From assembly GCA_029667085.1 (NCBI GenBank), contig JARUHJ010000011.1, positions 1 to 50,534 on the forward strand: 50,534 nucleotides of DNA, written 5' to 3'. How positions within the stretch are numbered: the first letter of the stretch is position 1; each line of letters begins with the position of its first letter. A program made the position numbers and the translations under genes. Source of the stretch: Deltaproteobacteria bacterium IMCC39524 (GTDB taxonomy: Bacteria; Desulfobacterota; Desulfuromonadia; Desulfuromonadales; BM103). The notes under the pieces are model-generated. The model did not search any database and was not told where the DNA came from. It was given only the letters and a program-made list of their open reading frames with translations. Below, in pieces: positions 172 through 46,890 of this stretch.

Positions 172-289
172 AAAAATGGCCACCAAGGATTGTCCCCTGG
201 TGGCCATAGTTTGTGTATTAAACAGCTTACTGAATACCTCTATCAACAAGAAGCCAGTTTTTCTCTTACAAGTCGTGAGTTTTAAGAAA
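172..289 (+). repeat. Dispersed repeat copy 1 (hairpin plus tail)
   Basis: Hairpin GGCCACCAAGG/CCTGGTGGCC at 178-205, then TGAATACCTCTATCAACAAG and AGTCGTGAG. It lies directly 3' of the minus-strand zinc-ribbon gene, so it would end that transcript. Confidence 0.85.
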
Positions 290-292
290 TGA

Positions 293-466
293 TCACAGAA
301 TCATTGATTCATCGAACGTGACAATAAAACCCTTGTTGCATGTCTGGCACTTAGCAATAAGAGATCTTTCAAACTTAGAGTCAAAGCCAACAAAATAGCT
401 TAACGGGACACTATTCACTTTTTGACATTCACTACACCTTGAAGTGATCATCCGCCTCTCTAGCAT
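293..466 (-). CDS. Small zinc-ribbon protein, 57 aa
   Basis: ATG at 466 is preceded by GGAGG seven bases upstream, and the frame ends at TGA 295-293. Two CxxC pairs (CSEC near residue 12 and CQTC near residue 42), about 26 residues apart, form a typical zinc-ribbon arrangement. There is no signal peptide, so it is probably cytoplasmic. A paralogue of the same length with the same Cys spacing sits at 32006-32179 (CNKC and CDSC). A repeat copy follows it immediately, as for most genes here. Function unknown; metal binding is inferred from the cysteines. Confidence 0.65.
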   Translation of the reverse strand: MLERRMITSRCSECQKVNSVPLSYFVGFDSKFERSLIAKCQTCNKGFIVTFDESMIL

Positions 467-701
467 TTTGAGCCTCCATCACCGAAGTATAGATTTAGTG
501 TCGGCAATTTCGTCTTAGACGTTAAATAAAATAGGACGCTGCCAATTATATCTAGTCATGAGGCGAGGTCAAATGTGATGGTGATAATATGTTTGTAGAA
601 TGGAGTTCTTAAATATGTCGTTCAATATGACTCGAATTTTGGACTCATAAGACGTGACTATTAGGCCTTTGTTTAGTCGTAAGGCACTTGAGATCAAAGG
701 G

Positions 702-1073
702 TTAAGCAGCAATAAACTGTTTGGCTTTATCGACCAAAGAGTTCTCCGTAAAAGGCTTCGGCAGGTAGCCATCTGCATTGGCTTCATCAGCCAGACCTTT
801 AAGCTCTAGCTCACCTTGAGACGAGATCAACACGATAGGGATTTGTTGGCTTTTCTCACGCTGTTTAAGGAGCTGTGTTTTCTTGACTCCCGACATAAAT
901 GGCATCATAACATCCATCAGAATGAGATCGGGTGGGGTCCTACTATAAATTATATGGTTTGAATAGATGCCACATTCGGCCGTTGAAACCATAAAACCAG
1001 CTTCACTTAAAAAGTCTTCAGCCATAGAAAGGACAAGACGATCATCATCAATAATCAAAATATGCTTATGCAT
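702..1073 (-). CDS. Stand-alone response regulator (CheY-like receiver)
   Basis: The 123-residue protein is a single receiver domain. Acidic residues D9-D11 follow the first strand (LIIDDD), the phospho-acceptor is D54 in LMDVMMP, and the conserved lysine is K106 in LPKPF. There is no output domain, so it probably acts by protein contact, as CheY or SpoIIAA-type relay proteins do. The start at 1073 is preferred over upstream codons because GGGAG sits eight bases before it and the receiver begins at once. Orphan histidine kinases at 7499 and 14333 are possible partners, but nothing in the sequence links them. Confidence 0.9.
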   Translation of the reverse strand: MHKHILIIDDDRLVLSMAEDFLSEAGFMVSTAECGIYSNHIIYSRTPPDLILMDVMMPFMSGVKKTQLLKQREKSQQIPIVLISSQGELELKGLADEANADGYLPKPFTENSLVDKAKQFIAA

Positions 1074-1250
1074 AAAATTCTCCCAGTAAAACAACGTTCC
1101 ACTAAAGCTAGGGGTTGGATGCAAATACGTCAATACAAATTACATTAATTTCAAAACATTAATATGTTTATTAGTTAGTTACGTCACAATATATACCTGC
1201 CACTGCCTCCGTTGTCTCAGAAGGAAATTGTGTTCTCCAGAGACAAAAAC

Positions 1251-1360
1251 GGCCACCAAGGATCGTCCCCTGGTGGCCATAGTTTTGTATATTAAAGAGC
1301 TTCCTGAATACCTCTATCAACAAGAAGCCGGTTTTCCTCTCAGAAGTCGTTATATTTAAA
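1251..1360 (+). repeat. Dispersed repeat copy 2
   Basis: Complete hairpin (1251-1278) and tail ending AGAAGTCGTTATATTT. It is followed directly by a second, different hairpin at 1361-1397. Confidence 0.85.
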
Positions 1361-1397
1361 AAGCCCCCGATTCAAAGACTGAAGGCTTTCGTGCTCA
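1361..1397 (-). terminator. Second hairpin family (AAAGCC/GGCTTT)
   Basis: AAAGCCCCCGATTC ... GAAGGCTTT forms a stem. Near-identical hairpins occur at 26013-26040 and 43824-43856, so this is a second reusable terminator module. Confidence 0.55.
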
Positions 1398-1418
1398 CAA
1401 ATACTAGGATACAAATTG

Positions 1419-3101: not shown

Positions 3102-3213
3102 GGCCACCAAGGATCGAACCCTGGTGGTCATAGTTTTGTGTATTAAAGAGCTTCCTGAATACCTCTATCAATAATAAGCCAGTTTTCTTCTCGCCAGTGG
3201 TAACTTGTAAGAA
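3102..3213 (+). repeat. Dispersed repeat copy 4
   Basis: Full hairpin and tail, with a divergent 3' end (GCCAGTGGTAACTTGT) shared with the copy at 19172. It lies between the channel gene and the divergent lipoprotein; the 155 bases after it hold no recognised signal. Confidence 0.8.
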
Positions 3214-5051: not shown

Positions 5052-5236
5052 TCTACTATAAATCCTCCTCCTGGATTTTGCCCCTCTGGGTAGGATGGTT
5101 CTGTGAGATTCTTAGATTGGCTGACAAATAATAAATGGCCACTTGGAATTGCTCCAGGTGGCCATCATTTTGTCGTCTTAAATGTCTCTATCTATAAGAA
5201 GCCGGTTTCCCTCTCACAAGTCGTGATTAATAAAAA
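5052..5236 (+). repeat. Dispersed repeat copy 5 with degenerate head
   Basis: The head is recognisable from CTATAAATCCTCCTCC; hairpin GGCCACTTGG/CCAGGTGGCC at 5137-5164 shows compensated arm changes; the tail ends CAAGTCGTGATTAAT. It sits 40 bases 3' of the minus-strand gene 5278-5691. Confidence 0.8.
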
Positions 5237-6721: not shown

Positions 6722-6825
6722 GGCCACCCGCTTCAAGGTGGCCATTTTCATTTATATTAAAAAACTTCCTAAAAGCCTCTATCAAAAATAAGCTTCTTTC
6801 TTCGTAAGAAGTCGTGACTAATAAC
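6722..6825 (+). repeat. Dispersed repeat copy 6 (divergent)
   Basis: Short hairpin GGCCACC/GGTGGCC, tail with CCTCTATCAAAAATAAG and GAAGTCGTGACTAAT. A different terminator module follows at 6827. Confidence 0.8.
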
Positions 6826-6826
6826 A

Positions 6827-6875
6827 AAAAAAGCCCCGCAGCCAAAAGATGGAGGGGGAGGTCTACGGGGCAATT
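6827..6875 (-). terminator. Third hairpin family (GCCCCG/CGGGGC)
   Basis: On the minus strand GCCCCGTAG ... CTGCGGGGC is followed by TTTTTTT. A second copy with the same flank (ATTCAGGAGGCAAAC) is at 21458-21506. No convincing minus-strand gene precedes it. Confidence 0.6.
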
Positions 6876-7368: not shown

Positions 7369-7476
7369 GGCCACCCAACATTAACCAGGTGGCCATCGTT
7401 TTATGAATGAATGAGCTCCCTAAATACCTTTATCAATAAGACGCTGGTTTCCGTCTCAGAAGTCGTGATTTGTAAG
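7369..7476 (+). repeat. Dispersed repeat copy 7
   Basis: Hairpin and full tail ending AGAAGTCGTGATTTGTAAG, 23 bases 3' of the minus-strand kinase gene. Confidence 0.85.
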
Positions 7477-7498
7477 ACACCCACCAAAAGAAGGGTTT

Positions 7499-8655: not shown

Positions 8656-8760
8656 GAGTTTATTGTAAATCCTCTTTGATGTATTGGAAGGTGTGAAGTT
8701 GGCCGAAATGCGAAAATCTTATTGCCCCTGCAACGTAAGAATGGCCCAACTAGGGAGGGC
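8656..8760 (+). repeat. Isolated repeat head without the usual hairpin
   Basis: GTAAATCCTCTTTGATG through CGAAAATCTTATTGCCCC matches the head; the following TGGCCCAACTAGGGAGGGC is only a vestige of the hairpin and no tail follows. Confidence 0.5.
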
Positions 8761-9395: not shown

Positions 9396-9532
9396 TGATT
9401 AATAAGCTTGATTATTGGGTGCAGCGGGTGATTAAAGATGACGGACGCAAAGTTATTATAAATCCTACTGAATTGCTTGGCGCTTGTGAAATCGACAAAT
9501 TTAGGAAATTCTTACTACCCCTGATAAATAAA
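9396..9532 (+). pseudogene. 3' remnant of a small gene related to 50191-50418
   Basis: The frame reads LDYWVQRVI, then VIINPTELLGACEIDKFRKF, then LLPL before running into the repeat hairpin. The protein at 50191-50418 ends in a closely similar segment (NPTALIRACEIDKIEKFLKPL). No start with a ribosome site is present here, and the frame lacks its own stop before the hairpin. It shows that the conserved head of the repeat is a decayed coding 3' end. Confidence 0.55.
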
Positions 9533-9647
9533 AACGGCCACCAAGGATTGTCCCCTGGTGGCCATAGTTTTGTGTATTAAACAGCTTACTGAATACCTCT
9601 ATCAATAAGAAGCCGTTTTTCTTCTCGTAAGTCGTGACTTATAGGAA
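9450..9647 (+). repeat. Dispersed repeat copy 8 (complete: head, hairpin, tail)
   Basis: Head from ATTATAAATCCTACTG, hairpin 9536-9563, tail ending GTAAGTCGTGACTTATAGG. It lies 3' of the minus-strand zupT gene. Confidence 0.88.
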
Positions 9648-10972: not shown

Positions 10973-11051
10973 TTGAGGCTTGGGAAAATGTATCCAGCAT
11001 GTTTCCTTCTACCGCCGACACCATTGCTAAAACTGCTAGAGGAGAATGCTA

Positions 11052-11831
11052 ATGCGATTTTTTTCGACACTGATTGCTTTGTTCCTGATGGTGTTACTGA
11101 CCAGTGGTTGCCAAGAGGAGTCTGCCCCTACTAAACGAATACTCCATCCTAGCGTCAAGAAACTCCCTCAAAAAATGGAGCACGCCAAAGAGCAGGCTCA
11201 TAAGTCAGATGCGCATGCTGATACAATGGAGCATGCCAAAGAGCAGGCTCACAAGTCAGGTGCGCATGCTGAGACGATGGAGCACGTCAAAGAGCAGGCA
11301 CATAAGTCAGGTGAACATGCTGAGACAATGGAGCACGTCAAAGAGCAGGCTCATAAGTCAGAGGCGCATGCTGAGACAATGGAGCACGTCAAAGAGCAGG
11401 CTCACAAGTCAGGTGCGCATGCTGAGACGATGGAGCACGTCAAAGAGCAGGCTCATAAGTCAGGTGAACATGCTGAGACAATGGAGCACGTCAAAGAGCA
11501 GGCTCATAAGTCAGAGGCGCATGCTGAGACAATGGAGCACGTCAAAGAGCAGGCTCATAAGTCAGAGGCGCATGCTGAGACAATGGAGCACGTCAAAGAG
11601 CAGGCTCATAAGTCAGGTGAACATGCTGACGTTGTGACCTATGAGAACAAGAAGGGTACAGTTACCTTTAACCACAAGGCTCACCAAGAGAAACTGGACG
11701 ATTGCGCCAAGTGCCATGAGGGTGAGCCTGTAAAAATCGAAGTCAACAAGGTCTACGGTCACAAGTCTTGCAAGTCTTGTCACAAAGAGATGAACGGTCC
11801 GACCAAGTGTAACGAATGTCACGTAAAATAA
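11052..11831 (+). CDS. Trihaem cytochrome c7-like lipoprotein with nine 17-residue repeats
   Basis: The signal peptide ends in the lipobox LLTSGC. Nine tandem 17-residue units (MEHVKEQAHKSGEHAET and variants, 51 bp each, 11175-11633) follow, each with three histidines, giving a charged helical or coiled stalk. The C-terminal 65 residues carry CAKCH, CKSCH and CNECH plus the VTFNHKAH motif of c7-type periplasmic cytochromes, so three haems are expected. The start at 11052 is chosen because GAGGAG lies eight bases before it; ATG 11046 is too close. It is probably an outer-surface or periplasmic electron carrier held away from the membrane. Confidence 0.85.
   Translation: MRFFSTLIALFLMVLLTSGCQEESAPTKRILHPSVKKLPQKMEHAKEQAHKSDAHADTMEHAKEQAHKSGAHAETMEHVKEQAHKSGEHAETMEHVKEQAHKSEAHAETMEHVKEQAHKSGAHAETMEHVKEQAHKSGEHAETMEHVKEQAHKSEAHAETMEHVKEQAHKSEAHAETMEHVKEQAHKSGEHADVVTYENKKGTVTFNHKAHQEKLDDCAKCHEGEPVKIEVNKVYGHKSCKSCHKEMNGPTKCNECHVK
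11175..11633 (+). repeat. Nine tandem 51-bp coding repeats
   Basis: Units start at ATG 11175, 11226 and every 51 bases. Position 12-13 variants run DA, GA, GE, EA, GA, GE, EA, EA, GE, so the GA-GE-EA triplet is itself duplicated (153-bp higher-order unit). Low nucleotide divergence implies recent expansion. Confidence 0.9.
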
Positions 11832-11931: not shown

Positions 11932-12022
11932 AACTAAGGTGGCCACAGTTTTTGGATTAAAGAGCTTCCTGAAACCCTCTATCAATAAGAAACCGTTTTT
12001 CTTCTCAGAAGTCGTGATATTT
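11932..12022 (+). repeat. Dispersed repeat copy 10 (left hairpin arm lost)
   Basis: Only AAGGTGGCCAC remains of the hairpin; the tail is complete (CCCTCTATCAATAAG to AGAAGTCGTGATATTT). It is 20 bases 3' of the LysR gene. Confidence 0.75.
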
Positions 12023-12042
12023 AAATATATAGCTTAGCTTTG

Positions 12043-14212: not shown

Positions 14213-14290
14213 TTTACTGTTTATCCTCTCGAATTTTTTTGAGTGCGTGAAATTGGCCAAAACACACAAATCTTACGAACCCTTATTTAT
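14213..14290 (+). repeat. Isolated repeat head
   Basis: TTTACTGTTTATCCTCTCG through CTTACGAACCCTTATTTATAAG; no hairpin or tail follows. Confidence 0.6.
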
Positions 14291-14332
14291 AAGAATTTCC
14301 AGTCCTTTCTCAAGATAAGCTGCCAATGGTAG

Positions 14333-15697: not shown

Positions 15698-15880
15698 ATC
15701 CTACTACATTGTCTTGGCTAGCTCAGATTGGCAGAAATGAGAAATTCTTACTGCCCCTGATAAACAATAAAAGGCCACCAAGAATCGAACCCTGGTGGCC
15801 ATAGTTTTGTGCATTGAACAGTTTACTGAATATCTCTATCAATAATAAGCCGGTTTTCGTCTCACAAGTCGTCATTAATA
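15698..15880 (+). repeat. Dispersed repeat copy 11 (complete)
   Basis: Head TACTATTTATCCTACTACATTG, hairpin 15773-15800, tail to CAAGTCGTCATTAAT. It abuts the stop of the minus-strand gene 15888-16394. Confidence 0.88.
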
Positions 15881-15887
15881 TGAAATC

Positions 15888-18269: not shown

Positions 18270-18400
18270 TCTTATTTATCCTACTGCATTGTTTCGGCGC
18301 GCTCAGATTGCCCGAAATGCAAAATTATTACTGATCCTGAAAAATAGAAAATGGCCACCTGTTACTAGGTGGCCATAATCATGTGAATAATTAGTTTCTT
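18270..18400 (+). repeat. Dispersed repeat copy 14 (tail lost)
   Basis: Head TTATTTATCCTACTGCATTG, hairpin 18353-18375, then only TTAGTTTCTTAGG remains of the tail. Confidence 0.75.
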
Positions 18401-19084: not shown

Positions 19085-19266
19085 ATATTTACTAAAAATC
19101 CTCTCGCATTGTTTTGGATGGGGATATTGGTCAGAAATTCTAAATTACTGAAAACCCTGCATTATAGAAAAGGCCACTTGGATCGTCTCCAGGTGGCCTT
19201 CAATTTGTCGTCTTAAATGTCTCTATCAATAAGAAGCCGATTTTCTTCTCGGCAGTGGTGATTTTT
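19085..19266 (+). repeat. Dispersed repeat copy 15 (complete, variant tail)
   Basis: Head ACTAAAAATCCTCTCGCATTG, hairpin GGCCACTTGG/CCAGGTGGCC at 19172-19198, tail with CGGCAGTGGTGATTT. Confidence 0.85.
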
Positions 19267-19403
19267 GAGAAAAAGAGAATGAGCATTTTTTTAGAAGCTC
19301 TCTAAAATTGTAAGAAAGAAATGCCCCCGATGTTGAAAAGCATAAGGGGCTGCACACAGGTTCGACCTTTAACTGTTTCCATTTGAGTTGAAGAACAAGA
19401 GGA

Positions 19404-21190: not shown

Positions 21191-21230
21191 AAAACAAAAA
21201 GCTGCCAAGGCATCAAATGCTTTGGCAGCT
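21191..21230 (-). terminator. Riboswitch-associated terminator
   Basis: On the minus strand GCTGCCAAAGCAT and ATGCCTTGGCAGC arms are followed by TTTTTGTTTT. Its 5' arm shares GCTGCC with the 3' side of the aptamer, so ligand binding and termination should be mutually exclusive. Confidence 0.85.
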
Positions 21231-21320
21231 CGGCTATCTTTTGAAGAAGAAGGTAAGACCCGTTGCTTTCCGTCCCTTCCTCACGGAAGGTTTGGCGTCA
21301 TGTCGTGTGCATAGTAGCAC
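21222..21320 (-). ncRNA. GEMM-I riboswitch aptamer (c-di-GMP/cGAMP class)
   Basis: Read on the minus strand it has CACGACATGACGCC, AAACC, a CTTCC-GTGA-GGAAG stem with a GNRA tetraloop, GGGACGGAAAGC, ACGGGTCTT, and GATAGCCGAGCTGCC. These elements in this order match the GEMM-I consensus. The base aligned with Vc2 G20 (two bases before AAACC) is G, which by eye favours c-di-GMP; the CACGACA and CGGAAAGC details resemble Geobacter cGAMP-sensing members. Terminator placement fits transcriptional control of the NHL-cytochrome operon 90 bases downstream. Confidence 0.8.
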
Positions 21321-21384: not shown

Positions 21385-21455
21385 TTATTTACCTCCCACA
21401 TTGTCCGAGGCATACCACATTGGCTGAAATGCAAAATTCTTACTACCCCTGCATT
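21385..21455 (+). repeat. Repeat head followed by a third-family hairpin
   Basis: ACCTCCCACATTGTCCG through CTTACTACCCCTGCATTATAA; the usual GGCCACC hairpin is replaced by the one at 21458. Confidence 0.65.
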
Positions 21456-21457
21456 AT

Positions 21458-21506
21458 AAAAAATTCCCCGCAGCCAAAGGATGGGGGAAGAGGTCTACGG
21501 GGAAAT
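21458..21506 (-). terminator. Third hairpin family, copy 2
   Basis: TTCCCCGCAG ... CTACGGGGAA stem, same flank (ATTCAGGAGGCAAAC) as the copy at 6827-6875. Confidence 0.6.
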
Positions 21507-21606: not shown

Positions 21607-21715
21607 GGCCACCAAGGATCGAACCCTGGTGGCCATAGTTTTGTGTACTAAAAAGGTTACTGAATACCTGTATCAATGAGCCTTTTTTCGTCTCAGAAGT
21701 CGTAACTTTTGAGAG
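21607..21715 (+). repeat. Dispersed repeat copy 16
   Basis: Hairpin 21607-21634 and tail with CTGTATCAATGAGCC (8-base deletion) and AGAAGTCGTAACTTTT. Confidence 0.85.
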
Positions 21716-25321: not shown

Positions 25322-25895
25322 ATGGGCATGAGAGTAGGTTATGCAAGGGTTAGTACCGTTGGCCAGAAACTGGATGTGCAAATGGACCACTTGGCAGATT
25401 GTGAACGCATCTTTCGAGAGAAAGCCTCGGCCAGTTCGACCAAAAATCGTCCTGAACTAAAAAATGCTCTCGACTTTGTTAGGGAGGAAGATGTTTTCGT
25501 GGTCACAAAGCTTGATCGCCTTGCTCGATCCGTAGTTGATTTATCAAAAATTGTTCAGCGACTTTAAGAGAAGAATGTGGATCTCGTTGTCATGGACCAG
25601 GGGATCGACACCACAACCATCTACGGCAAACTTCAATTCAACATTCTCGCAGCTATTGGTGAATTTGAGCGAGGATTGATCAGGGAACGCTCACTGGAGG
25701 GCCGTGAGAAAGCCAAAGCTCGCGGTGTTGTCTTCGGGGCGAAACCAAAACTTACACCTCAAGAGATAGTCGAACTTCTAAATGATTACGAAACGCCAGG
25801 GTGTAGTAAACGTGAGATTGCCGAACATTATGGCATCAGCACATCCTCTGTATATCGACTATATATATGAGAACAGACAGGCATTGTCTGCATGA
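25322..25895 (+). pseudogene. Serine recombinase (resolvase/invertase type), disrupted
   Basis: GGGAGACTATC precedes ATG 25322. The N-terminal catalytic domain shows YARVSTVGQ (nucleophile Ser), TKLDRLARSV, and after the break GEFERGLIRERSLEG, then a helix-turn-helix SKREIAEHYGISTSSVYRL. TAA at 25565 interrupts the frame where the copy at 44484 has GAA, and one extra base in a TA run near 25862 shifts the last ten codons. The gene lies between a repeat head (25150-25236) and hairpin (25904), with conserved upstream sequence shared with copy 2 (AAACTTTCATGACCAC). Confidence 0.88.
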
Positions 25896-25903: not shown

Positions 25904-26012
25904 GGCCACCCGACGATGATCCGGTGGCCTTGATTCTGCAGATTAAAGAGCTTACTGAATACCTCTATCAACAAGAAACCGTTTTTCTTCTCGTAAGTCG
26001 TGACAAATAAGA
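25904..26012 (+). repeat. Dispersed repeat copy 19 (downstream of recombinase)
   Basis: Hairpin AAAGGCCACC/GGTGGCCTTGATT starts nine bases after the ancestral recombinase stop; the tail is complete to GTAAGTCGTGAC. Confidence 0.88.
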
Positions 26013-26040
26013 AAAGCCCCTGATCCGAAGATTGAGGGCT
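26013..26040 (-). terminator. Second hairpin family, copy 2 (3' of the CBS gene)
   Basis: AAAGCCCCTGATC ... GATTGAGGGCTTT stem; 60 bases 3' of the minus-strand CBS gene stop. Confidence 0.65.
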
Positions 26041-26656: not shown

Positions 26657-26866
26657 AGGCCACCGAAGAAAGAGCTCTGGTGGCCATGATTAAGTGGAAT
26701 GAGCTATTCCGCAGCAATCCACGGGGTAGCAATAGTATGAATCATTTACATCCAATCGCAGCAAACTGCGGGGAATTTGACCCAACTATTGGTTAAACAG
26801 AGTCTCTCTAATACCTCTATCAATAAGAAGCTCGTTTTCTTCTCTTATGTCGTGACATGTAAAAAT
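26657..26866 (+). repeat. Dispersed repeat copy 20, split by about 100 bases
   Basis: Hairpin at 26657-26687 and tail at 26805-26866 (ACCTCTATCAATAAGAAG to TATGTCGTGACATG) are separated by unrelated sequence containing CGCAGCAATCC and CAGCAAACTGCGGGG. The inserted piece is not recognised. Confidence 0.7.
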
Positions 26867-27754: not shown

Positions 27755-27936
27755 AGAAATCCTCTCACATTGTTTTGGTTCGGTCAAACTTACAGAAATG
27801 CATTTAATTCTTACTACCCCTGATAAATAATAAATGACCACCAAGGATCGAACCCTGGTGGCCATAGTTTTGGTTTACTGAATACCTCTATCAATAAGAA
27901 GCCGGTTTTTCTCTCATATGTCGTGATTTATAAGAA
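27755..27936 (+). repeat. Dispersed repeat copy 21 (complete)
   Basis: Head AGAAATCCTCTCACATTG, hairpin TGACCACCAAGG/CCTGGTGGCC at 27835-27862, tail to CATATGTCGTGATTTAT; a tRNA-like remnant begins right after it. Confidence 0.88.
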
Positions 27937-29063: not shown

Positions 29064-29210
29064 TTTACTATTTATCCTCCTGCATTGTCTGGTACTAGGA
29101 GCCTTGGCTAAAACGCAAAATTCTTACTGTTCCTGCAATCCAATAAAAAGCCACCAAGGATCGGTCCCTGGTGGCTATGTTTTTAACTTACTGAATTATG
29201 TCTATCAATA
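29064..29210 (+). repeat. Dispersed repeat copy 22, interrupted by IS copy A
   Basis: Head, hairpin AGCCACCAAGG/CCTGGTGGC and tail up to TCTATCAATA, where the insertion sequence begins (left target AATA). Confidence 0.88.
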
Positions 29211-30594
29211 GAGCCTTTTGCAAAAGTACATTCACGTTTATGAATACACTTAGTAAAAGCATATAAAAGTTGAGCCTCAAGGGCAACTGTTTGATATTAT
29301 TAGGTTACTAGGCCAAATAATCCTCAGGAGGATGCCCATGAAGCTCAACGCGAAAATATCATGGTTGATGGGAACAGTACAGCAAAGTCTATTTCCCTAT
29401 CTTGACGAAAGCCTGCCCGACCCGCTCACTGATCCGGAGAAGCGCCTGGTCAAGATCCTTGAATTGGTTCAGATTGAACAGCATGTCCCAGTCAGTCGCC
29501 GTCGGCAATGGTTGGGACGACCGATCAAGGAACGTGAATCAATCGCTCGGGCCTTTGTGGCTAAGGCGTTGCTTCGTTATCAGCACACCAGGCCTTTGCG
29601 GAACGCTTTGCTGAGCACCCCGAATCTACGGATCATCTGTGGGTTCAGCAAACGGCAGGAAGTTCCCTCGGAATCGACCTTTTCACGTGCCTTTGCCGAG
29701 TATGCCAAGGCTGGTTTGGGCACGGTCGTCCACGATGCACTGGTCAAAGAGCACCTCGGAACGGAGTTGAGGGCACATCAGCCGGGATTCGACGGCTCTT
29801 CCAGGGCGAGAGAAACCTGCAAAAAAGATTAAGTTGCCCAAGGTCGCGAAGAAGCGAGGGCGTCCGACCAAAGTTGAGGTTCGCCCACTGAAACGGCTCG
29901 ATCTTCAGCGACTCCAGACGGCACAAGAAGCGCTTGCGGAATTGCCAAAGGTCTGTGATCGAGGCGTCAAGAAGAATGCCCAAGGCTATATGGAGACCTG
30001 GCACGGCTACAAGCTGCATCTGGACGTGAATGATTGCGGGTTGCCGATCAGTGCGGTCTTGACGTCGGCGCCACTTCATGACAGCCAAGTGGCGATCCCG
30101 TTGATGAAGCTGAGTGCTGTCAAAGTGACGTCCTGTTACGACCTGATGGACGCCGCTTATGATGCGACGCAGATTTGGGAGCAGAGTAAAGCGCTTGGCC
30201 ATGTACCCGTTATTGACCGCAACCCACGGAGTAAAAAGATCGCGCCAATGGCCCAGCATGAAGCCGCACGCTATAATGAACGCACCTCGGTGGAGCGCTG
30301 TAATGGCCGATTCAAGGACGAGTTCGGAGGCCGGAGCGTTCAGGTCCGTGGCCCGGACAAGGTCATGATGCACGCCATGTTCGGCATCGTGACCTTGTTT
30401 GCCGACCAGTTGCTCAAAGTCACAGGTTTCTGATTGTCACGGAGCAAAAGATGAGTTTACAGGGATAAGTCTGTTCCAAAAGCCGAAAGCCGGCCAAGTA
30501 GATCGTTTCCAGCCGTGTTTTTTTAGTTGAAACGGGGAATCAAGACTTCAACTTGTTCTGAAGTACCTCAGCCCAGGACTTTTGCAAAAGGCCC
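29211..30594 (+). mobile_element. Insertion sequence copy A (1384 bp, IS5/IS1182-like)
   Basis: Ends GAGCCTTTTGCAAAAGT and ACTTTTGCAAAAGGCCC form about 15-bp terminal inverted repeats. Flanks are AATA on the left and TATT on the right, which are not direct repeats of each other; each matches the outer flank of copy B instead. Nearly identical to copy B (39571-40954), with only a handful of substitutions seen. Confidence 0.9.
29338..30433 (+). pseudogene. Transposase with a +1 frameshift (IS copy A)
   Basis: AGGAGG precedes ATG 29338. The N-terminal part carries a DUF772-like helical domain. Near 29768-29772 the frame must skip one base (TTG A GGG CAC) to continue as GHISRDSTALPGREKPAKK, which contains the first catalytic Asp. 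Downstream, TSAPLHDSQ supplies the second Asp region and ERTSVERCNGRFK the Glu. Without the shift the frame ends at 29832. The lesion is the same in both copies, so it is either programmed +1 frameshifting or damage that was then copied. Confidence 0.8.
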
Positions 30595-30990: not shown

Positions 30991-31137
30991 TTAAGAGTTT
31001 ATCTACAAAAATCTTTTGACTCTTCTGTAATCAGTTTTTTGTGTTGCAATAAATGGTTGCTGTAGAGTTTGTAAAACAACGTCAAGTCTCTCACTCTGCG
31101 ATACGTAGAGGTGCCTACTCGAAATGCAGAGAATTTG

Positions 31138-31340
31138 TCTCATAAGTCACGACTTCTGAAACGAAAAACGGCCTCTTATTGATAGAGGTATTCAGTAAGG
31201 TGTTTACTACACAAAACTATGGCCACCAGGGTCCGATCCTTGGTGGCCTTTTTATATGTCAGGGTCAGCGAGAATCTCGCATTTATGCCAATCTGAACAT
31301 TCCGAAACAATGTGAGATGATTTATGAAACAATCAACCCT
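31138..31340 (-). repeat. Dispersed repeat copy 24 (complete, with head)
   Basis: AAGTCACGACTT, TATTGATAGAGG, hairpin 31220-31247 and TTTTTATATGTCAGGG, then a degenerate head to about 31340. Confidence 0.88.
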
Positions 31341-31725: not shown

Positions 31726-31735
31726 TTTCTTGTTT

Positions 31736-31918
31736 GTCACGACTTCCTAGAAGAAAAACGGCTTATTATTGATAGAGGTATTCAGTAAGCACTTTAATCC
31801 ACAAAACTATGGCCACCAGGGTTCGCTCCTTGGTGGCCTTTTCTATAAGTCAGGGTCTTTAAGGATTTCGCATTTCGGTCAATCTGAGGCCATGAAATCA
31901 ATGCAGTAATATTTATGA
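31736..31918 (-). repeat. Dispersed repeat copy 26 (complete)
   Basis: TGTCACGACTTCC, TATTGATAGAGG, hairpin 31809-31836 with TTTTCTATAAG, and head AGGATTTCGCATTTCGG to GTAATATTTATG. Confidence 0.88.
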
Positions 31919-32179: not shown

Positions 32180-32203
32180 TGCTTCAAGAATCCTTTTAAA
32201 CAT

Positions 32204-32385
32204 CACGACATATAAGACGAAAACGAGCTTCTTATTGATAGAGGTATTCAGTAAGCTGTTTAATACACAAAACTATGGCCACCAGGGGACGATCCTTGGT
32301 GGCCTTTTCTTATTTGTCAGGGGTAGTAAGAATTTCTCAAGTTTTTTTATTTAGCATGCGCCGAGCAATCCAGCAGGATTTATAA
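32204..32385 (-). repeat. Dispersed repeat copy 27 (complete)
   Basis: CATCACGACATATAAG, TATTGATAGAGG, hairpin 32277-32305, TTTTCTTATTTGTCAGGGG and head to CAGCAGGATTTATAATA. Confidence 0.9.
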
Positions 32386-32534: not shown

Positions 32535-32625
32535 GATCCCGAGAAACGCCATACTCATCGTAAGGTGAGGACGGAAAGCGGCGGATCTTTACTTGATAAA
32601 ACTACACGAAGATGGCCGAGCTGCC
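32535..32625 (+). ncRNA. Second GEMM-I-like riboswitch aptamer
   Basis: GAGAAACGCCATA, a CTCATC-GTAA-GGTGAG stem with a GNRA loop, GGACGGAAAGC, GGCGGATCTTTAC and AAGATGGCCGAGCTGCC follow in the GEMM order and match the aptamer at 21222-21320 at nearly every conserved block. AAACC is replaced by ATACT, the weakest point. The G two bases before that block again corresponds to Vc2 G20. A terminator overlaps its 3' end, and the next gene is the trihaem cytochrome at 32870. Confidence 0.72.
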
Positions 32626-32660
32626 TAAGGATACTGATCCTTAAGTATGCTCGGTTTTTC
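32616..32660 (+). terminator. Terminator overlapping the second riboswitch
   Basis: CCGAGC/GCTCGG arms with an inner AAGGAT/ATCCTT stem and TTTTT; CCGAGC is also the 3' side of the aptamer, so the two folds compete. Confidence 0.8.
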
Positions 32661-33280: not shown

Positions 33281-33293
33281 TTATTACAAAAAG

Positions 33294-33425
33294 TCACGAC
33301 TTATGAGACGAAATTCGGCTTCTTATTGATAGAGGTATTCAGTAAGCTGTTTAATACACAAAACTATGGCCACCAGGGGACGATCCTTGGTGGCCGTTTT
33401 TATTTATCAGGATTTGTATTTCTCA
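33294..33425 (-). repeat. Dispersed repeat copy 28
   Basis: AAGTCACGACTTATGAG, TATTGATAGAGG, hairpin 33367-33395, GTTTTTATTTATCAGG and a shortened head. Confidence 0.88.
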
Positions 33426-33714: not shown

Positions 33715-33782
33715 ATGCTTTAGTGTCAGGTGCAGACGCATAATTATAAACGGTTCCTTGTAATGGTGGGTCTTTATTGCTT

Positions 33783-33828
33783 ATCACGACTTCTGAGGCA
33801 AAACCGGCGTGCTATTGATAGAGATAAA
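33783..33828 (-). repeat. Repeat tail fragment (copy 29)
   Basis: ATCACGACTTCTGAGGC and CTATTGATAGAGATAAA, then a different stem GACCAACG ... TTGGTC replaces the usual hairpin. Confidence 0.65.
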
Positions 33829-34565: not shown

Positions 34566-34600
34566 AAAACGCCCCAGGAAACTCTGGGGCGTTTTCTTGT
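34566..34600 (+). terminator. GC-rich terminator in the place of the repeat hairpin
   Basis: AAAACGCCCCAG and CTGGGGCGTTTT arms, then CTTGTTTGTCAGGATCAG, i.e. the usual repeat head follows. The hairpin module has been exchanged. Confidence 0.8.
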
Positions 34601-34675
34601 TTGTCAGGATCAGTGGTAATTTCGCATTTCGGACAATTTCAGACACTCCACTCAATGCGAGAGAATAAATAGTAA
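34601..34675 (-). repeat. Repeat head after an exchanged hairpin
   Basis: TGTCAGGATCAGTGGTAATT through GAGAGAATAAATAGTAA. Confidence 0.75.
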
Positions 34676-36285: not shown

Positions 36286-36337
36286 CAAACATATTATTAG
36301 GGGTCGCTGAATGCGGCCCCTAATTTTCCTGAAATTC

Positions 36338-36518
36338 ACGACATATGAGAGGAAAAACGGCTTCTTATTGATAGAGGTATTCAGTAAGCTGTTTAATACA
36401 CGAAACTATGGCCACTTGGATCATCTCCAGGTGGCCTTTACTGTTTTATCAGGGTCAGTAGTAATTTCGTATTTCGGACAATCTAGAAGGCTGAAATCAA
36501 TGTAGGAGGAATTACAGT
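36338..36518 (-). repeat. Dispersed repeat copy 31 (complete)
   Basis: TTCACGACATATGAG, TATTGATAGAGG, hairpin GGCCACTTGG/CCAGGTGGCC at 36410-36436 and head to AATGTAGGAGG. Confidence 0.88.
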
Positions 36519-37894: not shown

Positions 37895-38035
37895 TGGCTT
37901 CTTATAAATCACGACTTATAATATGAAAAATGGCCACCTGGAAACGGGTGGCCTTTTTATTGGATTGCAGGGGTCGTAATAATTTAGTAGTTTTGTCGAG
38001 TTCAAACGCACCAAGCAATACAGTAGGATTTATAA
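37895..38035 (-). repeat. Dispersed repeat copy 32 (middle deleted)
   Basis: GGCTTCTTATAAATCACGACTTATAA joins directly to hairpin GGCCACCTGG/GGGTGGCC and TTTTTATTGG, then a head to GTAGGATTTATAAAA. Confidence 0.75.
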
Positions 38036-38154
38036 AAACTCTGCCCCTCCAACTTTAGCACCCCCGCTGTACTCAAAATTCATTCTTATAAATCAGTCGC
38101 TCACCTCTACTAAATTCTAGCATTCCAAATAGTTTAGGAGGACAAAGAAGGCAC

Positions 38155-38195
38155 GAGCTCCCCTCTTCGGCTTAGAGTTTGGGAGTTCTTTTTTT
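38155..38195 (+). terminator. Orphan terminator 1
   Basis: GAGCTCCC and GGGAGTTC arms, then TTTTTTT. No gene precedes it on the plus strand within 1.8 kb. Confidence 0.75.
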
Positions 38196-38213
38196 GAAAG
38201 CGCTATTTAAAGA

Positions 38214-38253
38214 AAGGTATCAGCACGCAATCGTGGCTGGTGCCTTATTTTTT
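38214..38253 (+). terminator. Orphan terminator 2
   Basis: AAGGTATCAGCACG and CGTGGCTGGTGCCTT arms then ATTTTTT, 20 bases after the previous terminator. Confidence 0.7.
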
Positions 38254-38425
38254 GGCCGTGTTGTTCCTCCGTGTTTAAGGCTTGCCGCTCTTTTTCCTAT
38301 CATTCAAGTTGTAACTACCTGAAAGCAATGTAAGGTTTGCATTGAAAGTCGCTTATTATAAAAGAAGGTCTCCCTTGTCGTTTGGAATTTTTTAATCCGA
38401 GCAATAATTTAAAGAGAGAGGGCTT

Positions 38426-39472
38426 ATGTCTATCAATAATTCAACTGATCGAGAGAGGTTTCCCCTCTTTCCTACGCTCGACCGCGGGGGCCGTATTGAG
38501 TTAGTCCAGCATTTCGAGAAGAGTGCGTGCTGGAACATCGACTTTATTATAATGATGGGCTTAGCCACAGCACTCGCTGCTCTTGGCTTGATGCAGGATT
38601 CAATTCCGGTAGTGATTGGCGCGATGCTAGTCGCACCTTTAATGTCTCCGCTGATCGGAGCTGGCTTCGCTTTAGTTCAAGGAAATATTAGCCTGTTCAG
38701 GGACTCAATGAAAGCTATGTCATTTGGAGTTTCTGGCGGGTTATTGATCTCGCTAATCCTTGGTTTTCTTACCCCGGAGTATGAACCAACCTTGGAGATC
38801 ATGGCTAGAGGCAATGTCAATTTACTTGACCTCGGAGTCGCAGTGCTATCAGGAATGGCCGCCGCTTACTCTATGGGCCGACCAGACTTATTTGCCACAG
38901 TTGCCGGTGTTGCCATAGCCGCCGCGTTGGTTCCGCCATTGGCTGTTGTCGGGATAGCAATAGCGGCTAGTGTCTACTGGTTGGCTGGAGCAGCAACTGT
39001 GCTGTTGATCACTAACCTTATCGCGATCATTTTGGGCGCGGCGTTGATTTTTCGGTTTTTGGGTGTCCAGGGCTCTTTAGCAGGTGCTCAGCTTCCAATC
39101 TGGGCGCGTCGGATGTTCCTGTCGCTGGTTCTAGCCGTTGGTTTGCTTATTTTTCCTCTCGGCGATCGTGCCCTCAAGCAGGCGAGGGAAGGGCAAACTC
39201 GCCCTCTTACGTATCCGGCCTCTTTGAAGGTTCGTAGTGCAGTCCAAGAGCGCATTGGCACAGAAAAGGACGTCGAGGTCATGATGGTTGCCAGAATTGG
39301 AGTTGAGCCGAACATGGGTATCCACGCCTTTTTGGTGAGCCCAAGTAATATTCCCGAAAAACTTTCGTCAGACCTTGTTGGCATTATAAGTAATGTCGTA
39401 GGAGAAGACACCCCGGTGAGGGTGATTAGACTAAAAGGCAAAATCAAGGACTACCTAGTTGCAACTAAGTAA
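38426..39472 (+). CDS. DUF389-family membrane protein
   Basis: 348 residues with about eight helices. The N-terminal core SIPVVIGAMLVAPLMSPLIG is the DUF389 hallmark, followed by LFATVAGVAIAAALVPPLAV. The C-terminal 90 residues are a soluble alpha/beta domain. Function of the family is unproven. AAAGAGAGAGGGC precedes ATG 38426. Two intrinsic terminators upstream (38155, 38214) isolate it or form part of a regulated leader. Repeat copy 33 follows. Confidence 0.88.
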   Translation: MSINNSTDRERFPLFPTLDRGGRIELVQHFEKSACWNIDFIIMMGLATALAALGLMQDSIPVVIGAMLVAPLMSPLIGAGFALVQGNISLFRDSMKAMSFGVSGGLLISLILGFLTPEYEPTLEIMARGNVNLLDLGVAVLSGMAAAYSMGRPDLFATVAGVAIAAALVPPLAVVGIAIAASVYWLAGAATVLLITNLIAIILGAALIFRFLGVQGSLAGAQLPIWARRMFLSLVLAVGLLIFPLGDRALKQAREGQTRPLTYPASLKVRSAVQERIGTEKDVEVMMVARIGVEPNMGIHAFLVSPSNIPEKLSSDLVGIISNVVGEDTPVRVIRLKGKIKDYLVATK

Positions 39473-39532
39473 CATATTTATTCGAGAGCATTAATTGACA
39501 TCACGTTGCATTGACTCAAGAGAGATTTCATA

Positions 39533-39570
39533 CAAGTCACGACTTCTAAGAAGAAAACCGGCTTCTTATT
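39533..39570 (-). repeat. Dispersed repeat copy 33, interrupted by IS copy B
   Basis: AAGTCACGACTTCTAAG to GGCTTCTTATT, where the insertion sequence begins. The rest of this repeat is found at 30595, beyond IS copy A. Confidence 0.88.
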
Positions 39571-40954
39571 GAGCCTTTTGCAAAAGTACATTCACGTTTA
39601 TGAATACACTTAGTAAAAGCATATAAAAGTTGAGCCTCAAGGGCAACTGTCTGATATTATTAGGTTACTAGGCCAAATAATCCTCAGGAGGATGCCCATG
39701 AAGCTCAACGCGAAAATATCATGGTTGATGGGAACAGTACAGCAAAGTCTATTTCCCTATCTTGACGAAAGCCTGCCCGACCCGCTCACTGATCCGGAGA
39801 AGCGCCTGGTCAAGATCCTTGAATTGGTTCAGATTGAACAGCATGTCCCAGTCAGTCGCCGTCGGCAATGGTTGGGACGACCGATCAAGGAACGTGAATT
39901 AATCGCTCGGGCCTTTGTGGCTAAGGCGTTGCTTCGTTATCAGCACACCAGGCCTTTGCGGAACGCTTTGCTGAGCACCCCGAATCTACGGATCATCTGT
40001 GGGTTCAGCAAACGGCAGGAAGTTCCCTCGGAATCGACCTTTTCACGTGCCTTTGCCGAGTATGCCAAGGCTGGTTTGGGCACGGTCGTCCACGATGCAC
40101 TGGTCAAAGAGCACCTCGGAACGGAGTTGAGGGCACATCAGCCGGGATTCGACGGCTCTTCCAGGGCGAGAGAAACCTGCAAAAAAGATTAAGTTGCCCA
40201 AGGTCGCGAAGAAGCGAGGGCGTCCGACCAAAGGTGAGGTTCGCCCACTGAAACGGCTCGATCTTCAGCGACTCCAGACGGCACAAGAAGCGCTTGCGGA
40301 ATTGCCAAAGGTCTGTGATCGAGGCGTCAAGAAGAATGCCCAAGGCTATATGGAGACCTGGCACGGCTACAAGCTGCATCTGGACGTGAATGATTGCGGG
40401 TTGCCGATCAGTGCGGTCTTGACGTCGGCGCCACTTCATGACAGCCAAGTGGCGATCCCGTTGATGAAGCTGAGTGCTGTCAAAGTGACGTCCTGTTACG
40501 ACCTGATGGACGCCGCTTATGATGCGACGCAGATTTGGGAGCAGAGCAAAGCGCTTGGCCATGTACCCGTTATTGACCGCAACCCACGGAGTAAAAAGAT
40601 CGCGCCAATGGCCCAGCATGAAGCCGCACGCTATAATGAACGCACCTCGGTGGAGCGCTGTAATGGCCGATTCAAGGACGAGTTCGGAGGCCGGAGCGTT
40701 CAGGTCCGTGGCCCAGACAAGGTCATGATGCACGCCATGTTCGGCATCGTGACCTTGTTTGCCGACCAGTTGCTCAAAGTCACAGGTTTCTGATTGTCAC
40801 GGAGCAAAAGATGAGTTTACAGGGATAAGTCTGTTCCAAAAGCCGAAAGCCGGCCAAGTAGATCGTTTCCAGCCGTGTTTTTTTAGTTGAAACGGGGAAT
40901 CAAGACTTCAACTTGTTCTGAAGTACCTCAGCCCAGGACTTTTGCAAAAGGCTC
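39571..40954 (+). mobile_element. Insertion sequence copy B (1384 bp, IS5/IS1182-like)
   Basis: Same ends as copy A (GAGCCTTTTGCAAAAGT ... ACTTTTGCAAAAGGCTC) and same orientation. Left flank TATT, right flank AACA. TATT also flanks copy A on its right, and copy A's left flank AATA pairs with AACA here, so target duplications are exchanged between the two copies. Confidence 0.9.
39698..40793 (+). pseudogene. Transposase with the same +1 frameshift (IS copy B)
   Basis: Same organisation as in copy A: DUF772-like N-terminus, shift near 40128-40132, then DSTALPGREK, TSAPLHDSQ and ERTSVERCNGRF. Only isolated substitutions separate the copies (for example KERES/KEREL and TKVE/TKGE), showing recent duplication. 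Transposase would be active only if ribosomes shift frame. Confidence 0.8.
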
Positions 40955-40998
40955 AACAAGAAACCGTTTTTCGTCCCACAAGTCGTGAGTTATGAGAG
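40955..40998 (+). repeat. Dispersed repeat copy 34, outer half left by IS copy B
   Basis: AACAAGAAACCG to ACAAGTCGTGAGTTATG. Joined to the left flank of IS copy A it reconstitutes one complete plus-oriented repeat. Confidence 0.88.
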
Positions 40999-43739: not shown

Positions 43740-43822
43740 TTTTCTTGCAAGTTTTCCTACATTGTTTGGGCGTACTCAGATTGGCTGGAATGCGAAATTC
43801 TCACTGACACTGCAATGTAAGA
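43740..43822 (+). repeat. Repeat head followed by a second-family hairpin
   Basis: TTTTCCTACATTGTTTGGGC through CACTGCAATGTAAG, then GAAAGCCCCC instead of the GGCCACC hairpin. Confidence 0.65.
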
Positions 43823-43823
43823 A

Positions 43824-44483: not shown

Positions 44484-45055
44484 ATGGGAATGAAAGTCGG
44501 CTATGCAAGAGTCAGCACCGTTGGCCAGAAACTGGATGTGCAGATGGATCACTTGGCAGATTGTGACCGTATCTTTCGAGAGAAAGCCTCAGCCAGTTCT
44601 ACCAAGAATCGTCCTGAACTGAAAAATGCTCTCGACTTTGTTAGGGAGGAAGACGTTTTCGTAGTAACCAAGCTTGATCGCCTGGCTCGATCCGTTGTTG
44701 ATCTATCGATTGTTGTACAGCGTCTTGAAGAGAAGAATGTTGATCTTGTTGTCATGGACCAAGGGATCGCAATACGACCATCTACGGCAGACTTCAATTC
44801 AATATACTTGCCGCTATTGGAGAATTTGAAAGAGGCTTGATCAGGGAGCGATCCCTCGAAGGCAATCAGAAAGCAAAAGCTAGGGGCGTAAAGTTTGGGG
44901 CTAAGCCAAAACTGACCTCTGATGAGATCCAGACGCTACTAAAAGATTATGAATCACCTGGTCTGAGCAAAAAGGAAATAGCGGAGCTTTACGGGATAAG
45001 CACATCATCTGTTTATAGGCTCTACTATGAAAACAGGCAGGCATTATCAGCATGA
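44484..45055 (+). pseudogene. Serine recombinase, frameshifted (copy 2)
   Basis: AAAGGGAGGTTGTC precedes ATG 44484. Same protein as 25322-25895 (YARVSTVGQ, TKLDRLARSV). One base is missing in GGGATCGCAATACG near 44770 compared with the other copy, so the frame ends early (LKEA at 44840); the rest (IRERSLEG, KEIAELYGISTSSVYRLYYE) follows in another frame to 45055. The upstream 65 bases are conserved with copy 1, and repeat hairpin copy 36 follows directly. Confidence 0.88.
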
Positions 45056-45061
45056 AAACAA

Positions 45062-45146
45062 AAGGCCACCAGACATTGATCCGGTGGCCTTGATTCTATG
45101 GATTAAAACTTTACTGAATACCTCTATCAATAAGAAGCCGCAACTA
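45062..45146 (+). repeat. Dispersed repeat copy 36 (downstream of recombinase 2)
   Basis: Hairpin AGGCCACC/GGTGGCCTTGATT begins six bases after the recombinase end; tail stops at CAATAAGAAGCCGC. Confidence 0.85.
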
Positions 45147-45178
45147 GTGATAAAGTGTCTACAAAAAAGGTGATCCAA

Positions 45179-46261
45179 TCAGTCATTACCAATGCCGCAA
45201 TCGGGGTCGCTTGGAGAGTCCTTACATTTATATGGCTTGTCTGTGCTCTCATCAGAAACTAAATAGTCGGCATCAGTGATGGTAACTTCACCAACCTTAA
45301 CAAGATAGAAGTAGTCAAGCTTGGTACTGGCTTCACGACCACGGAAGCTAATGTAGTGGCTCCCAGCCTGGAGTTCGACAGTATATGGGTCGTATTGAGG
45401 TTTGTCGAAACGGCCAGTGCCGCGGCCGGTCACGTCGTCCTCGCGCCAGAAATTGAACTCATTTACCGAGCCGGTCGGATTGAGGTCCCAAATGATTTCG
45501 GCAGCATTGTCAATGGAGACAAAAAACGAGTCAGAGTCGTGGCTGACAGCAAACACACGAGCGACAATTTTGTAAATACCGGGAACGGCCACATTGAAGC
45601 TATGGCTTGCAATACCACTGTCACTGTTGTTGGTCTGGATATATGAACCATTGGATGCAGCAGGGTCTGAAACCACGACCATCGGTGCAGCGAGCTTACC
45701 ACTTTCCGCTTCAATGGCTCCTGATGGTGTTGTGTCTATGACATCGTCAGCCATACCGTTGCAGTTCTCATCTAACCCGTTGTTGTTGATTTCGATTGCA
45801 CCAGAATTGATTGCAGCATCGTAGTCATTGCAATCGACGGTTAGATCGTAACCGTCCCCATCTAAGTCATTGTATGAATATTCAGGAGAGTAAACTTCGT
45901 TAGAGTACTTGCTCTCCTCACCGTTAAAGTTATATGCGGTTACTGCAAAAAAGTGTTTTTTAGTATCGTCAAGACCAACAAGATTTGCGCTAGTAGCGCT
46001 GGCTATATCAATAGGTGAAGGCCCCACGTTTGCTTCTGCTCCAGTGTAATTTCCGGAACCAGTACCATAATGAATCTTGTACCCTGCTACGTCCGACTCC
46101 AGATTGGCATCCCATACCAAGGTGATGTCCTTAGCTTGTGAAATATTGGCAGCACTTGTCAGGAGAAAGAATAACCCGATTAATACAACAGACAACTTTT
46201 GACTGAGTTTGGAACATACCATTTTCTTAATATAAAGGTGGGAAAACGATTTAGTTGACAT
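45179..46261 (-). CDS. Secreted FN3 / MopE-like metal motif / carbohydrate-binding-like protein
   Basis: ATG 46261 follows AAGGATAACTATA. A signal peptide (about 20-44) is followed by an FN3 domain (ITLVWDANLESDVAGYKIHY), a MopE-type metal motif (DLDGDGYDLTVDCNDYD, then NNNGLDENCNGMADD), and a C-terminal beta-sandwich with YDPYTVELQAGSHYISFRGRE, typical of CBM6-like carbohydrate modules. Likely exported to the surface; the MopE-like part may bind calcium. 360 residues; no catalytic domain. Confidence 0.78.
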   Translation of the reverse strand: MSTKSFSHLYIKKMVCSKLSQKLSVVLIGLFFLLTSAANISQAKDITLVWDANLESDVAGYKIHYGTGSGNYTGAEANVGPSPIDIASATSANLVGLDDTKKHFFAVTAYNFNGEESKYSNEVYSPEYSYNDLDGDGYDLTVDCNDYDAAINSGAIEINNNGLDENCNGMADDVIDTTPSGAIEAESGKLAAPMVVVSDPAASNGSYIQTNNSDSGIASHSFNVAVPGIYKIVARVFAVSHDSDSFFVSIDNAAEIIWDLNPTGSVNEFNFWREDDVTGRGTGRFDKPQYDPYTVELQAGSHYISFRGREASTKLDYFYLVKVGEVTITDADYLVSDESTDKPYKCKDSPSDPDCGIGND

Positions 46262-46707
46262 TATAGTTATCCTTATATTTTTATCCAGCTTGTTTTTCAT
46301 AAAGTTACAAATTAGGGATTAAACGAATACACATAGTTTATTTTGCAAACAGGCACCCAAAAAACAGACTAATATTTAGATTAAAGCTTGAAAGCTGCAA
46401 TGAGAATTGCAATCTATTGTAATCATATAATTTAAAAAATTATTAAAATTCTTAATTAGATTTTAATCTTTACAATTTTTTATATTCAACTTAGGAACGG
46501 ATATTTTATAAAGTCTTTTCACAGGGCTTCATTACGTTTTTACACATTCTAAATTTAAACCCAAAGATTTAATATAAAGGTTTGAAGTATAATAACTCTT
46601 ATGGTTCTTGCTTAGCGCACAATTAACGTTTTCTTACAAGGGTTCAACTTTAAGAACGAAATTTTAGTATGTAGGGGGCTTGGCACTTGAGGTGGGTATT
46701 TACTAAT
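46262..46707. other. AT-rich intergenic stretch
   Basis: Very AT-rich (runs such as AATTATTAAAATTCTTAATT), no gene, no strong hairpin. Possibly the regulatory region of the minus-strand gene 45179-46261. Confidence 0.45.
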
Positions 46708-46890
46708 TTATCCTACTGCATTGTTTTGACGTCCTTAGATTCACCGATATGCTAAATTTTTAATGCCCCTGACATATAAAAAGGCCACCGAGGATCGAAC
46801 ACGGTGGCCATAGCTTTGTGTAGTAAAGACCTTACTGAATACCTCTATCAATAAGAGGCCGTTTTTCGTTTCAGAAGTCGTGCATTATAG
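46708..46890 (+). repeat. Dispersed repeat copy 37 (complete)
   Basis: Head ATTTATCCTACTGCATTG, hairpin GGCCACCGAGG ... CGGTGGCC at 46784-46808, tail to AGAAGTCGTGCATTAT. It is the last clear copy before the KAP operon. Confidence 0.88.

Follow-up and report, generated by a model that had tools for sequence, protein, structure and literature searches.

Integrons are the textbook case of bacteria storing and reordering genes as cassettes. The 50,534-nucleotide stretch of Deltaproteobacteria bacterium IMCC39524 analysed here (the window, positions 1-50534 of contig C11, in a genome, G000, of 3.78 Mb in 19 contigs) resembles an integron array, or a cluster of attC sites without an integrase, in that long co-oriented runs of exchangeable cassettes, mostly of one or a few genes, have a conserved site beside each gene. 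These sites belong to an intergenic repeat made of a tail, a terminator hairpin and a head, and come in two palindromic classes, T and H, in arrays that also carry a 190-aa serine recombinase. We put at roughly 0.74 the probability that the window is part of a chromosomal cassette bank joined by site-specific recombination at T and H, with this recombinase as the likely enzyme.

In contrast to integrons, the sites here are palindromes with a 2-bp centre, fall into two classes, and separate genes that face both directions. No integron integrase exceeded the cut-off in the window's own genome, the one genome searched for it (TIGR02249, best score 90 versus 265 bits). The attC core motifs GTTRRRY and RYYYAAC occur in 3 and 0 of 585 sites of 26-27 bp, and in 17 and 17 of 306 T-H units, below the 45 and 52 of 306 found in shuffled units, so that the lack of an attC signature, remarked on in an earlier reading of the window from its letters alone (the sequence-only reading), holds. 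The dif site, of 28 bp, has a 6-bp spacer, and the dif modules of Acinetobacter have sites in alternating orientation; here, by contrast, the dyad profile indicates a 2-bp centre, neighbouring sites are co-oriented (470 same, 3 different), and the genome has its canonical dif-like site in another place, at C1:514778. Common to both are genes lying between short palindromic sites and, in the part of the Acinetobacter plasmid study available, a small serine recombinase among the Xer/dif cargo (PMC12907356).

With the small serine recombinases (gamma-delta/Tn3 resolvase, Gin and Hin invertases), the arrays have in common both the protein family and a palindromic site of 26 bp around a 2-bp centre. 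This is the layout of the hix and gix sites; the known enzymes of this kind resolve cointegrates or flip a segment, and we know of none that runs a gene-cassette array. In staphylococcal cassette chromosome (SCC) elements, serine recombinases (CcrAB/CcrC) insert and excise gene blocks in a fixed orientation, which is the likeness to the present case; these are large serine recombinases, and SCC comprises few big elements at one chromosomal target. Family matches here were only weak, far below cut-off. Cassette arrays run by a serine recombinase had no earlier description in the open-access literature searched, a scope that leaves most subscription papers and all preprints outside. In related bacteria, Geobacter bemidjiensis and Pelobacter carbinolicus, intergenic repeat families are reported as multicopy nucleotide sequences (PMC2996986, PMC3543383); compared by description, and in the portions available, these papers treat them as repeats, without a cassette or recombinase model.

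Repeat anatomy, distribution and orientation

The anatomy was read from a 195-column profile, which runs from site T through the tail, the hairpin and site H to the head. The first of these, T, is an imperfect palindrome of 26 bp, TTCTTATAAGTC-AC-GACTTCTGAGA, whose asymmetric 2-bp centre is AC in 296 of 310 copies; the palindrome is perfect in 2 of the 310, and complementary positions average 7.2 of 12 at its own centre versus 1.6-4.8 elsewhere (201 copies). Site H, likewise a 26-bp imperfect palindrome (TTCTTATTTGTC-AG-GGTTAGTAAGAA), lies 114 bp past site T, beyond the terminator hairpin, and its dyad scores 5.6 at its own centre versus 1.8-4.1 at others (176 copies). The centre of H reads AG in 218 of 275 copies and GG, in that frame, in 46 more, apparently following a shift of the frame by one base. 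Judged from their sequences, both sites are laid out like the crossover sites of small serine recombinases; the two crossover-like palindromes and the serine recombinase are new with respect to the sequence-only reading.

The hairpin stem is paired in 93.7% of cells over 22 aligned copies, and 10 cells are altered on both sides, versus 3.6±1.4 after shuffling (reached in 0 of 500 shuffles), in line with the compensated arm changes proposed earlier, while the number of base pairs with such a double-sided change is not unusual (3 versus 2.0, 130 of 500 shuffles). Heads without tail and hairpin exist, often behind an unrelated terminator (for example at 8716, 21437, 34594 and 43798), a replacement of the hairpin that had also been noticed before. 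Conversely, tandem tail-hairpin units are found in which a T site replaces H (C4:73816-74048). The sites, the terminator module and the gene segments are therefore separable, and the repeat, previously taken as one unit, consists of at least two modules bounded by the two 26-bp sites. At the tandem locus (L061 of G000), the two direct tail-hairpin units are 113 bp apart, have a site in common and form a gene-free cassette. Positions 43-72 of the tail profile (for example window 9576-9605, minus strand) read TTGATA-N18-TTTAAT, which resembles a sigma-70 promoter directed at the hairpin and could yield a very short RNA. Many heads end, by eye, like TTGACC-N17-TAGATT; a general role of heads as promoters of the next gene was dropped because genes face both directions.

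A covariance model of tail plus hairpin (R1), with an own-genome match threshold of E<=0.01, matches 34 times in the window, close to the 35 copies of tail, GGCCACC/GGTGGCC hairpin and head announced earlier, and 140 times in the genome. The full-length profile gives 44 module hits in the window, counting pieces that are only head or only tail, and one hairpin on the opposite strand. The 140 matches are clustered and not distributed like repetitive extragenic palindromic (REP) sequences: 108 of them fall within 14 clusters of at least 3, adjacent pairs no more than 6 kb apart number 104 versus 27.6±4.3 under random placement, and 65 lie on five small contigs (C11-C15) that make up 3.1% of the genome. 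A REP-like, genome-wide spread had been named as the outcome that would speak against a cassette array. As contigs C1, C3, C4 and C10 likewise terminate within or next to arrays, the assembly is broken there. R1 matches were found in 24 of 58 genomes searched, i.e., in 20 of 22 genomes of the window's family (own genome counted) and 4 of 36 outside it. Rfam at gathering thresholds returned nothing on the repeat in the window (two c-di-GMP riboswitches only), which also has no tRNA gene. Y1/RAYT transposases, considered as partners of the repeats, were set aside, their per-genome counts being unrelated to the repeats (1 in the own genome, 14 in G006) and the single own copy (C4:213892) lying outside the arrays.

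The orientation of T is given by the direction in which the T-run comes after the hairpin, and sites were accepted only where a profile hit started near the site, then thinned to one per 15 bp. In the own genome, 153 of 156 pairs of neighbouring sites less than 6 kb apart are co-oriented, as are 317 of 317 pairs on the relatives' contigs fetched, which were picked for high-scoring R1 matches or a recombinase and are not a random sample of relatives. Two of the three exceptions lie at two insertion sequence (IS) copies in the window, and one on C1. Of the genes that co-oriented sites enclose, 64 are sense and 40 antisense in the own genome, and 110 and 63 in the relatives, about 63% sense overall. 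The earlier claim that the repeat lies 3' of a gene and is oriented with it thus stands for a majority of genes and fails as a near-invariant rule, unlike site co-orientation. The orientation of the repeats must therefore be set by something other than the genes, and replication polarity is spoken against by contig C1, where array blocks of either orientation alternate.

Segments shared between arrays

The 321 segments between consecutive sites were compared all-against-all (250-4000 bp, at least 85% of the longer one covered), and 42 shared pairs were found, 16 of them above 400 bp (aligned 410-2063 bp). The flanks, taken 130-330 bp outside the shared segments, could be measured in 77 of 84 cases; all stand at alignment background (0.47-0.59) and none matches. 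The best-documented cassette of the window (37969-39540, with a DUF389 gene) is 96.8% identical to G003:C493:2092-3664 from the centre of H to the centre of T and unrelated outside, identity being 63% over the 30 bp that precede H and 57% over the 80 bp further out; a separate BLAST match spans exactly 1-1572 of the cassette and the same G003 coordinates. G003 is a close relative (95-96% identity over the xer region), so that its arrays have been reshuffled even though this part of the core is nearly unchanged. Another genome, G005, holds some segments at 97-98% identity versus 89-90% over the xer region, which suggests transfer. These alignments support segments exchanging, between site centres, among arrays and species, much as the exchangeable cassettes of a non-classical array that the sequence-only reading had envisaged.

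Where do these segments end? For T, pairs with homologous upstream genes (at least 88% over 120 bp) were used, 21 in all, after one of 22 had been left out as its next cassette was homologous too; none of the 21 H pairs was left out. The gene-side half of T is identical at 230 of 252 positions (0.913), versus 0.61±0.033 at random (0 of 2000), and the far half at 180 of 252 (0.714), not above the random 0.74. If every site enters only once (20 pairs), the values become 0.917 and 0.713. For H, the cassette-side half reaches 165 of 252 (0.655 versus 0.555 at random, 35 of 2000; 83 of 2000 when each site is used once, 17 pairs), and the far half 133 of 252 (0.528 versus 0.539). Shared DNA thus breaks at the site centres, clearly for T and more weakly for H, and the pooled data would tie the tail-hairpin neither to the preceding gene nor, less certainly, to the following one. 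A unit made of a gene plus its repeat, as first proposed, is at odds with homology that ends at the T centre. Taken together, the sequence-only reading is partly supported: it was right about a cassette array, and wrong about the unit and the mechanism.

The sites of the window, with the recombinase and IS copies and the cassette described above, are as follows:

263-288, minus: site T (26 bp, centre AC)
1337-1362, minus: site T
1660-1685, minus: site T
3188-3213, minus: site T, terminates segment common with G005:C87
5109-5134, minus: site H (centre AG)
5211-5236, minus: site T
6802-6827, minus: site T
7453-7478, minus: site T
8716-8741, minus: site H, head behind other terminator
9509-9534, minus: site H, frame moved by one base
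9622-9647, minus: site T
12002-12027, minus: site T
14270-14295, minus: site H, head only
15745-15770, minus: site H
15859-15884, minus: site T
18325-18350, minus: site H, frame moved by one base
19145-19170, minus: site H, frame moved by one base
19246-19271, minus: site T
21437-21462, minus: site H, head behind other terminator, frame moved by one base
21690-21715, minus: site T
24103-24128, minus: site H
25215-25240, minus: site H, upstream of recombinase copy
25322-25873, plus: serine recombinase copy, broken by internal stops
25988-26013, minus: site T
26840-26865, minus: site T
27808-27833, minus: site H
27911-27936, minus: site T
29121-29146, minus: site H
29208-30592, plus: IS (DUF772/DDE_Tnp_1 transposase) within a tail, left edge of oppositely oriented block
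31137-31162, plus: site T
31249-31274, plus: site H, frame moved by one base
31727-31752, plus: site T, directly behind a hairpin
31840-31865, plus: site H, frame moved by one base
32193-32218, plus: site T
32307-32332, plus: site H
33284-33309, plus: site T
33774-33799, plus: site T
34594-34619, plus: site H, head behind other terminator
36326-36351, plus: site T
36439-36464, plus: site H
37899-37924, plus: site T
37957-37982, plus: site H, opens best-documented cassette
37969-39540, plus: gene cassette, DUF389 protein at 38426-39472
39527-39552, plus: site T, closes cassette 37969-39540
39568-40952, plus: second IS copy, direct to the first, within a tail, right edge of oppositely oriented block
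40973-40998, minus: site T
43798-43823, minus: site H, head behind other terminator
44484-45052, plus: second serine recombinase copy, broken into two pieces that lie in different frames
46757-46782, minus: site H, frame moved by one base
46868-46893, minus: site T
50272-50297, minus: site H
50398-50423, minus: site H

Between 29208 and 40952, the two direct IS copies (99.6% identical) bound a block in which all repeats are reversed, and they interrupt two different tails at the same position. This arrangement fits a circular intermediate: the block would stem from an array circle, about 9 kb long and with a single IS copy, that was integrated by recombination between IS copies. It could also be an assembly fault. 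At the IS junctions, TATT is seen by eye at both inner junctions, with AATA and AACA outside.

Candidate recombinase, proposed mechanism and rival explanations

The recombinase carried by the arrays is of the resolvase/invertase type (PF00239); among PDB chains it comes nearest to a DNA invertase and to gamma-delta resolvase (E about 1e-26), in alignments that include the YARVST and KLDRLxR segments, and the own genome has intact copies at C2:140084-140653 and C13:8426-8995. A T or H site lies within 140 bp of the recombinase in 8 of 12 close loci of the fetched data. Six loci from five genomes (C2, C13, G009, G011, BM302 and G007:C513, where the match is partial) have the centre of T 106-109 bp past the point at which the recombinase match ends, and in C2, C11, G003 and G009 the centre of H falls 92-94 bp ahead of the match. 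In other families, among the matches listed, a tail stands right behind the recombinase gene in G041 and G030, and a head right before it in G026, with heads farther away in G057, G048 and G047; in G030, the sole R1 match found in the genome adjoins the recombinase. The 10 named loci that encode the protein belong to metagenome-assembled genomes titled Desulfuromonadales, Desulfuromonas, Geobacteraceae or Deltaproteobacteria.

Serine recombinases act as dimers on partly palindromic sites and leave 2-nt overhangs (PMC11607074, in the text available), and for serine integrases the accessible part of PMC3783163 reports efficient exchange only with parallel alignment of the central dinucleotides. 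This behaviour fits both the site layout and the co-orientation. A dimer of the small serine recombinase would bind each site and cut at the 2-bp centre. Neither AC nor AG is self-complementary, and the two centres are unlike, so that ends would rejoin only within a class and in a single direction; recombination of T with T or of H with H would therefore excise a circle or insert one in a fixed orientation, T and H acting as two parallel exchange systems. Repeated cycles of excision and insertion would build long co-oriented arrays, whichever way the genes face, in which cassettes would hold whole genes or small gene groups and the hairpin behind each tail would probably end transcripts and insulate neighbours. 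We lean, with some reserve, towards the wider view that this is a natural gene-capture system distinct from integrons, in which a small serine recombinase and two mutually exclusive site classes (AC and AG centres) build and shuffle chromosome-scale banks of cassettes, each holding whole genes together with their terminators, across Desulfuromonadales. If so, it would be a second cassette system with a different chemistry, cassette banking having arisen more than once; it would also help account for genome plasticity in sediment Desulfuromonadales, and provide orthogonal, direction-keeping recombination sites for genetic engineering.

Several points weigh against such a cassette bank and its proposed enzyme. 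The evidence is entirely comparative, and among the 42 shared pairs, 26 consist of short T-H segments (about 250 bp) that belong to few families and are not independent. Breakpoints estimated from single pairs scatter, from -60 to +96 for T (13 of 21 between -11 and +9) and from -93 to +61 for H, where only 7 of 21 fall between -5 and +7 and a majority of the others inside the head; in 1 of 22 T pairs, the next cassette is common as well. Both recombinase copies of the window are broken, and at 4 of the 12 recombinase loci neither a T nor an H site was recognised within 140 bp. Close copies of the recombinase (E<=1e-40) occur in 9 of 24 R1-positive and 9 of 34 R1-negative genomes, and G005, which is 99% complete and has at least 57 R1 matches, has no close copy and holds only a 31%-identical recombinase, with an H site some 450 bp away. 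Small serine recombinases can also travel as passengers, as reported for a "dif-ser" module among the Acinetobacter dif modules in the part of PMC12907356 available. Since per-genome presence does not track R1 and G005 lacks a close copy, the 190-aa protein should be regarded as the best candidate enzyme and not as an established one.

Could another enzyme move the cassettes? A tyrosine recombinase (XerCD or a phage-type integrase) acting at these sites, with the serine recombinase as a passenger cassette, is unlikely and still deserves attention: besides the passenger reported among Xer/dif modules (PMC12907356, same part) and the poor agreement between recombinase and repeats, the integron-integrase profile detects other tyrosine recombinases on C1, C5, C6, C7 and C8, and CATAA/TTATG in some site copies resembles dif arms. 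These tyrosine recombinases sit outside the arrays, however, and the canonical dif-like site lies in another place, on C1. Moreover, the dyad extends up to the 2-bp centre, whose bases are some of the best conserved ones, where dif has its 6-bp spacer, and alternation of sites as in Acinetobacter is hard to reconcile with 470:3.

Ordinary homologous recombination between direct repeats, shuffling genes without dedicated site or enzyme, is more doubtful still, and appears quite improbable. Direct co-oriented repeats of about 200 bp would permit circle excision and insertion, and the scatter of single-pair breakpoints, larger for H than for T, is what it would produce; but breakpoints should then spread over the whole repeat, whereas pooled identity falls at the T centre, and palindromes with near-invariant asymmetric centres would be left unexplained. 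We give very little credence to the repeats being MITE-like (miniature inverted-repeat transposable element) non-autonomous remnants, inserted between genes, of an element that comprised tail, hairpin, recombinase and head: the recombinase does lie between tail-hairpin and head in several arrays, so that the common unit resembles the element minus its gene, but independent insertion would not yield such co-orientation, and tail and head swap partners separately at the site centres. Repeats of REP or terminator type, retained for transcription termination only, can practically be dismissed, as the conserved hairpin with its compensated changes and T-run would suit them, but not the clustering, the shared segments ending at sites, or a lone Y1 transposase outside the arrays.

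Cargo and neighbouring genes of the window

Among the genes carried as cargo in the window are those for response regulators and histidine kinases, for LysR regulators (close to glyoxalase or YceI genes), for a ZIP transporter and for a homologue of ligand-gated channels, besides a DsrE/PCuAC/SCO1 group; this gene content suggests that cassettes carry complete functional units rather than promoterless single genes. The channel homologue, within the array at 1772-2896, is a bacterial relative of pentameric ligand-gated ion channels (Neur_chan_LBD plus membrane domain). In the gene at 11046-11831, which lacks a Pfam match at E<=1e-5, three CXXCH motifs come after a stretch of 51-bp tandem repeats (MEHVKEQAHKSG..). 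Two c-di-GMP-I riboswitches are located at 21220-21305 and 32538-32628; one of the pair (GGC type) precedes an NHL-repeat gene and a gene with a doubled CXXCH, and the other a small cysteine-rich gene. Finally, a KAP-family P-loop NTPase is encoded at 48469-50097, close to the contig end.

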